Source: Haematobacter genomosp. 1 (GTDB taxonomy: Bacteria; Pseudomonadota; Alphaproteobacteria; Rhodobacterales; Rhodobacteraceae). From it: a stretch of 64,000 nt of DNA. The notes below the pieces were generated by a model, which was not told where the DNA came from, made no database searches, and saw nothing but the letters and a program-made list of their open reading frames with translations. The position numbers and the translations under genes were made by a program. The stretch is taken from NCBI RefSeq assembly GCF_002196855.1, contig NZ_NIPW01000005.1, forward strand, positions 1-64,000. The letters are read 5' to 3'. Below are positions 1-18,788 of the stretch, in pieces. How positions within the stretch are numbered: the stretch's first letter is position 1; each line of letters begins with the position of its first letter.

Positions 1-22
1 GTCGGCAGGTCGGCAGGTCGGT
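1..22. repeat. Short 8-bp direct repeat at the window edge
   Basis: The unit GTCGGCAG occurs twice in full and a third time in part. It touches the left end of the window, so its full extent cannot be seen. The next 210 bases or so (23-233) hold no gene that I can support. Confidence 0.6.
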
Positions 23-283
23 GTGGCGTGACCTTCGGGTTGTGCAAAGGGGGGTGAGCATCAAGGTTGGACGCCCGCTGGACGGACCGGCGCGTTACTT
101 GTCGGCTTTAGTGCGGCGTGGTGACTTGAGGAGGCGGCAGCAACGGCTGTCGCGGGCTTTTCAGGGACTGGTGGAAAGCACGGTGGAACTGGACTGCTGG
201 CCGGATGTGCGAGGTCGGATGTCCAGGCTGGGCGCATCCGCTGCGGAAGGCCGGGTGTGCTATCACGAAGCCGAGGGAAGCAG

Positions 284-660
284 GGAGCCGAGCGCGGGCA
301 CGCGGAGGAACCCACCGATGACTTGCACATTGGGAGAGGCCGCAAGGCAGAGGCGCGCGCGGAGGAACCCTTCTGATTGGCAAGGAGTATGCGCGTAAGG
401 TCGGGCAGAGCCCCGCGCACACGCGGAGGAACCCCCGGCAGCAAGTCGCACACGCGCCGGTTAGGGCCGCGCGCGCGGGAGAACCCCTGCGTCTGGAATG
501 AGTGAAGAGGACCGTACGTCAGAACCGCGCGTGTGCGGAGGAACGCTTCGGTGCTGGGTGGACGAGCAGCGTCGATCCAGAGCCGCGAGCGGAGGAGCCC
601 GGTCTGCGGGTGCGTCGATCGCCCCGCGGGGGTAGGGCCGCGCGCACACGGAGGAACCTG
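284..660 (+). CRISPR. Degenerate CRISPR-like array (I-E-like repeats), no cas genes in view
   Basis: Seven related units end at about 313, 370, 434, 486, 546, 600 and 659, giving periods of 57, 64, 52, 60, 54 and 59 bases. Each is about 26-29 bases: a variable A/G-rich start, a short GC stem of the form CCGCG-loop-CGCGG, and the 3' end GCGGAGGAACCC or a close variant. The intervening 26-38 bases are unrelated to one another. Size, period, internal dyad and a 3' tail ending in AACC resemble type I-E repeats read on the plus strand, with the last eight bases as the would-be crRNA handle. No two units are identical, so the array looks decayed rather than active. Weaker traces may lie near 235-252 and 695-720. 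No cas gene is present; they could lie left of the window. The alternative is an unrelated GC-rich repeat family. Confidence 0.55.
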
Positions 661-801
661 CTTCGTGGATCAGACCGAGGGATATGCAGCCTCAATCCGA
701 GAGAGGCGGATCGGAGCGCGACGGCGTTCACAGGGGAGCCAGGCGGACCGGAGGCATGAGGCCCCCGGCCGCGGGATTTCCGGGAGGAAACCGGGGAGAG
801 A

Positions 802-1578
802 TTACCAGGCGGTGATGACCGAGCCGTGGTATTTTTCCTCGATGAAGGTCTTGATCTCCGGCGAGTGGTACGCCTCGATCAGCGCGGGCAGCCAGTCGGC
901 ATGTTCATCGGCCCGGCGGACCACGATGACATTGGCATAGGGGCTTTCGGCCTTTTCCCGCGCGATGGTGTCGGTCTTGGGGTTCAGACCGGCAGCCAGC
1001 GCGTAATTCGTGTTGATGATCGCCACGTCCGCATCGGGCAGCGAGCGGGGAAGCTGCGCCGCGTCCAGTTCGAGGAAGGTGAACTTCTTCGGGTTCTCGG
1101 TCACGTCGAGCACGGTCGGCACAAGGCCCGTGCCATCCGCCAGCTTGAGCAGCCCCAGATCCTGAAGCAGCAGGAGCGCCCGCCCGCCGTTGGTGGGATC
1201 GTTCGGGATGGCGATCTTGGCGCCGTCCTTCAGCTCATCGAGCGATTTCAGCTTGCTGGAATAGATGCCCATGGGCGTGGTGATCGTCTTGGCGACCGAG
1301 ACAAGATCGAAGCCGCGGTCCTTGATCTGGTTGTCGAGATAGGGCTGGTGCTGGAATGAGTTCGCGTTCAGGTCGCCATCGGCCAGCGCCTGGTTCGGCA
1401 CCACGTAGTCGGAGAATTCGGCCACTTCGATGTTCAGCCCCTTGGGCTTCGCGACCTTCGCGACTTCTTCCATGATCTCGGCATGTTCGCCCGGAGACAC
1501 GCCGACCTTGATGTCGGTGGCGAAGGCGGCGACCGCCGAAAGCGCGAGGGCGGAGACGAAGGTTGTGAGACGCAGCAT
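802..1578 (-). CDS. metQ: MetQ, methionine ABC transporter substrate-binding protein
   Basis: 258-residue periplasmic binding protein of the NlpA/MetQ family, which captures D/L-methionine for the MetNI importer. A Sec-type signal peptide covers about residues 1-20 (MLRLTTFVSALALSAVAAFA), and the mature part opens with DIKVGVSPGEHAEIM, typical of MetQ. There is no lipobox cysteine, so it should be freely periplasmic, unlike the enterobacterial lipoprotein. The ATG at 1576-1578 is preceded by AGAGG. It is the last gene of metN-metI-metQ, with 23 bases separating it from metI. Substrate could be another amino acid, but operon order and family favour methionine. Confidence 0.92.
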   Translation of the reverse strand: MLRLTTFVSALALSAVAAFATDIKVGVSPGEHAEIMEEVAKVAKPKGLNIEVAEFSDYVVPNQALADGDLNANSFQHQPYLDNQIKDRGFDLVSVAKTITTPMGIYSSKLKSLDELKDGAKIAIPNDPTNGGRALLLLQDLGLLKLADGTGLVPTVLDVTENPKKFTFLELDAAQLPRSLPDADVAIINTNYALAAGLNPKTDTIAREKAESPYANVIVVRRADEHADWLPALIEAYHSPEIKTFIEEKYHGSVITAW

Positions 1579-14244: not shown

Positions 14245-15258
14245 ATGAAAGCCATTGGATACCGGGAGCCGGGCGCCATCGACCGGGGGGACGCGTTGCA
14301 GGATATCGAGCTGCCCCGGCCCGTACCCGGCCCGCACGATCTGCTGGTGGAAGTGGCGGCGGTCTCCGTCAACCCTCTCGACACGAAGGTGCGGCGGCGG
14401 GCCGGAGCCGGGGGCGACGGCTGGAAGGTGCTGGGCTGGGATGCCGTCGGCCGCGTGGTGGAGACGGGGGCGGCCGTCACCGCCTTCAAACCGGGGGACG
14501 AGGTCTGGTATGCCGGCTCCATCACCCGTCAGGGGAGCAACGCGGAGTTCCATCTGGTCGATGAGCGGATCGTCGGGCGGAAGCCTGCCAGCCTGTCGAT
14601 GGCGGAGGCCGCGGCGCTACCGCTGACCGCGATCACGGCGTGGGAGATGCTCTTCGATCGGCTGGACGTGCGCCGTCCCGTGCCGGGGGCGGCGAATGCC
14701 ATCCTCATCATCGGCGGGGCGGGGGGCGTCGGCTCCATCGCCATCCAGCTGCTCCGCGCACTGACGGATGTGACGGTCATTGCCACCGCCTCCCGCCCCG
14801 AGACGCAGGACTGGGTGCGGCAACTCGGCGCGCACCACGTGATCGACCACCGCCAGCGGCTTGCCCCGCAGGTGGAGGCACTGGGGATCGGCGCGCCTGC
14901 ATGGGTCTTCTCCATCACCCAGAGCGGCGCGCATGCGGCGGAGGCGGCAGAGGCCATCGCGCCGCAGGGCCGCTACGGGCTGATCGACGATCCGGTCGGG
15001 TTCGACATCCTGCTGTTCAAGCCGAAGGCGGTGTCGGTCCACTGGGAATCCATGTTCGCGCGCGCCGTCTTTCAGACGCCGGATATGGGAGAGCAGGGCA
15101 AGCTGCTGACGCAAGTCGCCGACATGGTGGACGCCGGTCGCCTTCGCACCACGGTGACGGAGGTCATGCGACCGATCAACGCTGCCAATCTGAAAGCGGC
15201 ACATGCCAAGATCGAGAGCGGCACCGCGCGCGGCAAGATCGTTCTTGAGGGATTTTAG
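14245..15258 (+). CDS. Zinc-type alcohol dehydrogenase family / quinone oxidoreductase
   Basis: 337-residue MDR-superfamily NADPH oxidoreductase of the ZADH/quinone-oxidoreductase-like group. An N-terminal GroES-like domain covers about 1-130. The Rossmann motif GGAGGVGSIAIQLL lies near residues 155-168. Structural-zinc cysteines are absent, as in zinc-free quinone reductases. The ATG at 14245 follows GAGGGAGA; longer upstream frames are not supported. Its C-terminus, GKIVLEGF, is the usual family end, but the TAG stop is contributed by the terminal inverted repeat of a miniature element (15256-15412). No operon partner; substrate unknown. Confidence 0.87.
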   Translation: MKAIGYREPGAIDRGDALQDIELPRPVPGPHDLLVEVAAVSVNPLDTKVRRRAGAGGDGWKVLGWDAVGRVVETGAAVTAFKPGDEVWYAGSITRQGSNAEFHLVDERIVGRKPASLSMAEAAALPLTAITAWEMLFDRLDVRRPVPGAANAILIIGGAGGVGSIAIQLLRALTDVTVIATASRPETQDWVRQLGAHHVIDHRQRLAPQVEALGIGAPAWVFSITQSGAHAAEAAEAIAPQGRYGLIDDPVGFDILLFKPKAVSVHWESMFARAVFQTPDMGEQGKLLTQVADMVDAGRLRTTVTEVMRPINAANLKAAHAKIESGTARGKIVLEGF

Positions 15259-18706: not shown

Positions 18707-18788
18707 GGTTGCGGGTTGCGGGTTGCGGGTTGCGGGTTGCGGGTTGCGGGTTGCGGGTTGCGGGTTGCGGGTTGCGGGTTGCGGGTTG
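18707..18788. repeat. 7-bp tandem repeat, about 11-12 copies
   Basis: The heptamer GGGTTGC is repeated without interruption for about 82 bases, starting 50 bases after the BisC-type stop. Copies are essentially identical, so the array is young and prone to slippage. No gene overlaps it. The rest of the 18657-19162 interval holds element copy 3 and no gene. Confidence 0.9.

Follow-up and report, generated by a model that had tools for sequence, protein, structure and literature searches.

CRISPR repeats span about 23 to 47 nt, and those of type I-E are 28 to 29 nt long, strongly palindromic, and marked by a 3' end resembling ATGAACCG. Arrays without cognate cas genes also occur, as orphan arrays. 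In the genus Haematobacter, H. massiliensis CCUG 47968 carries a type I-E locus (L007:375-17000) in which searches detected cas3, cse1, cas7e, cas5, and cas1; the locus holds more than 60 repeats on a contig with nearby ParA- and RPA-type replicon genes, and a ATGAACCG-like 3' end is seen in its array. In the accessible text of PMC8616872, orphan arrays lacking cognate cas genes are taken to suggest degeneration of a CRISPR-Cas system, and the type I-F remnant of Escherichia coli described there is an array without cognate cas genes, as is the one described here. Among orphan arrays, remnants as well as false predictions are mentioned in the accessible text of PMC6737040. Here we describe a locus of Haematobacter genomosp. 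1 (the host) that is, in our judgment, probably a fossil CRISPR array without cas genes, most compatible with type I-E; this reading was first proposed in an initial annotation of the DNA, and we retain it as the best one.

We analyzed the first 64,000 nucleotides (here, the window) of contig C42 of the host draft genome, which comprises 4.2 Mb in 81 contigs. A CRISPR-like array of seven copies of a short repeat (U1 to U7) lies on the plus strand at 284-659, between two ordinary genes (Table 1). The shared pattern, CAGAG or TAGGG, then a CG/CA-rich middle of changing length, and then a 12-base tail, is roughly CAGAGCC-(CG/CA)n-GCGGAGGAACCC. The tail is exact in three of the seven units and has at most two mismatches in all seven. 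Tail-to-tail spacings are 57, 64, 52, 60, 54, and 59 bases (mean period, 57.7). The boundaries between units and interspaces are a hand-drawn partition, under which four of the seven units measure 28 to 30 nt. All seven units differ from one another, with a mean pairwise identity of 0.84 over aligned bases (range, 0.64 to 0.96) plus length differences, and in sequence U3 is the best preserved.

Table 1. Features at the left end of the window. Lengths follow the hand-drawn partition; R1 is a sequence model built from U1 to U7 themselves, for which re-finding all seven units is expected.
Feature	Position	Strand	Length (nt)	R1 score in bits (position)	Tail GCGGAGGAACCC	Remark
End of 8-bp tandem repeat GTCGGCAG	1-21	+				Assembly breaks here; context, outside the array
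U1	284-313	+	30	19.0 (285-313)	Exact	
U2	348-370	+	23	21.4 (346-370)	Exact	
U3	406-434	+	29	24.2 (404-434)	Exact	
U4	461-486	+	26	19.1	2 mismatches	
U5	519-546	+	28	24.9 (518-545)	1 mismatch	
U6	578-600	+	23	16.1	1 mismatch	
U7	632-659	+	28	26.2 (631-658)	2 mismatches	
Six interspaces (within 314-631)	314-347, 371-405, 435-460, 487-518, 547-577, 601-631	+	34, 35, 26, 32, 31, 31			Mutually unrelated
metQ-like NlpA lipoprotein gene	802-1578	-				Right neighbor of the array; context

An unfiltered R1 search of positions 1-800 gave no credible copy beyond these seven. Two extra units drawn by eye at about 222-256 and 684-717 were dropped; the former aligned poorly, and R1 matches neither. The initial annotation had described seven recurring units with a 3' tail, each different from the others and spaced 52 to 64 bases apart, all of which was borne out by the measured tails and by alignment of the units. 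Its span of 235-720 is corrected to 284-659 by the R1 search, and its unit length of 26 to 29 bases becomes 23 to 30 nt in the hand partition.

We compared the array with several chance expectations. When the whole window was scanned on both strands for the 12-mer tail with up to two mismatches, 26 places were found versus a shuffle mean of 14.7, and seven of them are the array tails. The best recurring 12-mer, with two mismatches allowed, has seven copies within 241-670, limits chosen to frame the array, versus six copies in one, five in three, and at most four in the rest of 148 fixed 430-base tiles of the window. The tile scoring six contains a 7-bp tandem repeat, and the two of the 148 tiles that cut across the array have three copies each. 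As a side observation, a perfect 7-bp tandem repeat, GGTTGCG, occupies window positions 18707-18788 in 11.7 copies and reads as intergenic. Regarding evenness, all six gaps fell within 52 to 64 bases in 9 of 200,000 random placements, and an equal or smaller spread was obtained in 13. Besides, repeat-to-repeat similarity was above that of all 500 shuffles, whereas interspace-to-interspace similarity was matched by 137 of 500 shuffles for the sum score and by 44 of 500 for the best single pair. The repeats are real and regularly spaced, and their interspaces are mutually unrelated, in agreement with the initial annotation; spacers shared as one repeated block, which would have pointed to an ordinary repeat, were not found.

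We further compared the array with the known features of CRISPR arrays and of type I-E. In the hand partition, direct repeats alternate with spacers that are similar in length but unrelated in sequence, and the interspaces of 26 to 35 nt agree with the spacer length of about 32 nt expected of type I-E. Near-identity of the repeats, by which CRISPR arrays are also recognized, was not observed (mean identity, 0.84), and because the repeats are far from identical, the array is not a working one but at most a decayed one. The type I-E array of H. massiliensis resembles it in its 29-nt repeat (as in U3), a 3' end with GAACC, and a period of 61; an ungapped comparison of U3 with the intact repeat, both 29 nt long, gave 20 of 29 identical bases. 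The differences are also clear: the H. massiliensis array has more than 60 copies, those printed being nearly identical, whereas only seven diverged copies are present here, and it has the tail GGGGATGAACCG and adjoining cas genes, whereas the host array has the tail GCGGAGGAACCC, no cas genes, and a period of 52 to 64. No CRISPR family was assigned to the array by Rfam, which equally missed the true type I-E array of H. massiliensis, so that this result is uninformative.

The likeness in sequence was then weighed against controls. R1 was run over the window and over 16 loci selected from 132. Of its 139 non-self matches, 134 were H. massiliensis type I-E repeats, each of them weak (6.6 to 8.9 bits; E of about 1 to 5), and these fell on both strands. 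The best non-self match was a lone place at window positions 14920-14942 (12.2 bits; E, 0.084), not a type I-E array. In the opposite comparison, of the type I-E repeat against the seven units, its own shuffles scored as well in 1 of 5,000 trials and random GC hairpins in none of 5,000. With the stem kept and the flanks shuffled, 111 of 5,000 (107 in a separate run) were as good in the forward orientation and 463 of 5,000 if either orientation was allowed; the reverse complement of the repeat scored 162 versus 157 for the forward strand. Judged from these sequence comparisons, the likeness to the type I-E repeat comes mostly from the GC stem, and the assignment to subtype I-E and the orientation of the array are tentative. 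Thus, of the type I-E layout seen by the initial annotation, the geometry stands as the nearest match, whereas the likeness in sequence is mostly that of the stem and is scored as well in the reverse orientation.

The initial annotation had also given every unit an internal GC dyad. This was not confirmed for the units as a group: 221 of 300 shuffles equaled or undercut the mean folding energy of the pooled units. Unit by unit, U3 alone stood out, with 13 of 300 shuffles folding as low, a result similar to that of the H. massiliensis type I-E repeat in the same test (11 of 300). Since dyad folding is seen in U3 only, any ancestral stem would have worn away in most copies.

In searches for Cas7e, Cse1, Cas9, and Cas1, no cas gene cognate to the array was found near it or elsewhere in the host genome. 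A whole-genome search of the host draft gave no match for Cas7e or Cse1, and none for Cas9, the last being a weaker negative because that family reached its cutoff in 0 of 14 control genomes. The Cas1 search returned one broken fragment, at 1015-1257 of contig C16. On the same contig, a Cas2 frame matched TIGR01573 above its cutoff (45 bits), and the best family of the truncated Cas1 frame was the type II family TIGR03639 (102 bits, below the cutoff of 120). By these family matches, the cas1/cas2 frames at C16:407-1377 are a separate dead CRISPR remnant, of type II and unlinked to the array units; like the array it would be a relic, although of another type. The left end of contig C16 (298-1377) also holds, beside the Cas2 and Cas1 frames, one 36-nt sequence at about 301-336, which we take to resemble a type II-C repeat. 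The absence of cas genes noted in the initial annotation for its field of view therefore extends to the genome for Cas7e, Cse1, and Cas9, but does not cover the broken type II Cas1 fragment on another contig.

The array lies close to an assembly break, since the window begins at base 1 of contig C42. The contig opens within the GTCGGCAG tandem repeat, and the GC-rich stretch from base 22 to the metQ-like gene holds the array. Elsewhere in the host genome, the 21-base form of the repeat was found only where contig C54 ends; the last gene of that contig codes for a DUF2218/siderophore-interacting protein. The order siderophore-interacting protein gene and then metQ is found in both sister species, H. 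missouriensis and H. massiliensis, and contigs C54 and C42 are likely joined across the GTCGGCAG repeat, with the gap between them unread. In H. missouriensis CCUG 52307, 64.6 copies of GTCGGCAG (L011:8158-8674) come after the siderophore-interacting protein gene and before metQ; in H. massiliensis CCUG 47968, that position is taken by 57 copies of GTCAGCAC (gene strand; L012:5718-6173). One intergenic site in two sister species carries perfect 8-bp tandem repeats of 57 to 65 copies built from different 8-mers.

The stretch between the tandem repeat and metQ differs among the three species. Apart from the 8-mer, the host and H. missouriensis share DNA only from base 716 on, and the host and H. 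massiliensis are alike only at the edges, with a middle that aligns no better than shuffles. No comparable array-like recurrence was found at this site in the two sister species, in which the best motif had four and three copies. The H. missouriensis stretch contains a fragment with an LPD3 domain (L011:8894-9298), which we take to be a domain of large polyvalent proteins of phages and mobile elements. Because the stretches of the sister species differ and hold no array, the site appears to turn over quickly, and in this comparison the array was seen in the host genome only.

Relatives of the array were sought more widely. In the host genome, two further places carry the 12-mer tail without mismatch, both apparently coding by eye, and R1 finds the seven units and one other weak place (17.4 bits). 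Over 61 relatives, R1 gave matches with E of at most 0.1 in nine genomes; the eight genomes other than the host had one match each, and those of both sister species equal the extra match of the host in score and in model span. A dispersed repeat family was rejected: the unit is not scattered singly over the host genome, which the initial annotation would have taken as the sign of such a family. The units cluster nowhere else in that genome. We also searched with a pattern demanding two exact tails. Among 394 family genomes it matched three, including the host, and yielded no relative of the array: of the two others, one has a lone pair that is no array by eye and one has short-period repeats. 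Among 289 class genomes, a set partly overlapping the family set, the host genome alone matched. In viral contigs the same pattern matched 12 stretches, none of them a CRISPR array by eye. Three tails within 200 bases were not found at 80 metQ loci of other genomes, in a scan that had no positive control.

Possible sources of the spacers were also examined. A BLAST search of 222-720 against the 61 family genomes gave, beyond the host, three matches of 25 to 30 bases with E of 0.004 to 0.01 per genome, for which the expectation over 61 genomes is about 0.6. Two of these run across the border between a repeat and an interspace; the third, with 25 of 28 bases, covers the interspace between U3 and U4. 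This last match lies in a frame with repeated ELW..DGT motifs, which reads by eye as a repeat-protein gene of the ordinary chromosomal kind, and it was taken as chance. Against phages, the spacers gave no match at E of at most 1, a search by which decayed spacers would be missed, so that the idea that the spacers record past phages drew no match from this comparison. Five plasmid matches were obtained at chance level (E, 0.2 to 0.7), none confined to one spacer, and U3 gave only scattered matches with plasmids and phages, all with E of at least 0.6 (for phages, among the best 15 of 32 records). Neither an intact parent array nor a protospacer was found in the genomes, plasmids, and phages searched, and no leader was recognized.

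The geometry, the evenness, the alikeness of the repeats next to unrelated interspaces, the likeness of U3 to the H. massiliensis repeat, and the presence of a type I-E locus in the genus together argue for a fossil array, and we hold with moderate confidence that the array is CRISPR-derived. The most compatible ancestor is a type I-E array, with a 29-nt repeat and a spacer near 32 nt, that has since lost its cas genes. Once Cas1-Cas2 were missing, repeats would no longer be added or copied, and crRNA processing would no longer be under selection; once-identical repeats would then drift through substitutions and through changes in the length of the CG/CA-rich middle, and spacers would gain or lose a few bases. 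The array is probably nonfunctional, its cas genes having been lost or never present and its growth having stopped, and the repeats, which seem too diverged for uniform processing, are unlikely to be processed. In this it would differ from the type I-F orphan arrays of E. coli, which still elicit interference once type I-F Cas proteins arrive, as stated in the accessible text of PMC8616872.

The extent of divergence gives a rough indication of age. The tail copies differ mutually by 14% on average, and at four-fold sites of metQ the host differs from H. missouriensis by 12.8% (18/141) and from H. massiliensis by 20.9% (29/139). The tail divergence is close to the metQ divergence from the nearest species, as neutral decay that set in at about the time of their separation would give. 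Provided that the copies started out identical and have drifted freely, decay would have begun roughly at the split from H. missouriensis, a consistency check based on few sites. Several observations count against a fossil array of type I-E. None of the length changes falls within the 12-base tail, a restriction that uniform decay alone does not predict. The likeness to type I-E is mostly that of the GC stem and is scored as well in the reverse orientation, the type I-E matches of R1 lie on both strands and are not its best, the pooled units fold at the level of shuffles, and no parent, protospacer, or leader was found.

The restriction of length changes would be explained if the units were not of CRISPR origin but repeated sites under selection, in which CAGAG and GCGGAGGAACCC are protein-binding blocks or function at the RNA level, the CG-rich middle can vary without constraint, and the sites are positioned by their even spacing. 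This agrees with a tail that shows no length change in any of the seven units after a preceding part of 11 to 18 bases, and with the R1 alignments, in which both unit ends are conserved around a middle of variable length. By substitutions alone, however, the tail is scarcely more conserved than the repeat as a whole (mean pairwise identity over aligned bases, 0.857 versus 0.837), the spacing varies from 52 to 64, both sister species lack such an array at the same site, and the exact tail-pair pattern detected no relative among the 394 family and 289 class genomes, so we regard selected sites, the main alternative, as rather unlikely. A regularly spaced repeat that has no name as yet, with CAGAG and GCGGAGGAACCC ends and a variable CG core, sitting at a fast-changing site by the 8-bp repeat and offering putative binding sites for protein or in RNA, is an unlikely description as well.

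A decayed minisatellite, in which tandem duplication of a unit with a period of about 58 bp was followed by divergence, would account for the even spacing and would suit an intergenic site where the sister species carry a perfect 8-bp tandem repeat. It would nevertheless require similarity to have vanished from one half of each period and to have persisted in the other, and the interspaces resemble one another no more than shuffles do, by the sum score or by the best pair; we consider this origin quite improbable. As for a false array, in which similar words arose by chance and local slippage in a GC-rich intergenic stretch, the sequence does alternate CG and CA motifs, and some orphan arrays were later reclassified as false predictions (accessible text of PMC6737040), but the recurrence above the 148 tiles, the evenness, and the repeat similarity above every shuffle largely exclude this reading, which is very improbable. 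The degenerate trailer of a live array beyond the window, suggested by the initial annotation and favored by the contig edge with its unread gap, is scarcely credible, as no R1 unit lies in the left 283 bases, Cas7e and Cse1 are unmatched in the host genome, and extension to the left through the likely join with contig C54, which ends in the same 8-mer, leads to the conserved siderophore-interacting protein gene.

Orphan and fossil arrays are a known kind, and the array is most likely a modest curiosity and no new system; in the accessible parts of the records returned by a literature search for Haematobacter and CRISPR, no description of it was found. The practical weight of the finding is small. 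If the array is a fossil, it shows how CRISPR repeats age after the loss of cas genes, with a GC-rich middle that changes length and a 3' end that lasts, and programs demanding near-identical repeats may miss such remains. Furthermore, taken together with the type II relic and the plasmid-like contig that carries the type I-E locus in the sister species, a fossil array would imply that Haematobacter has gained and lost CRISPR more than once.
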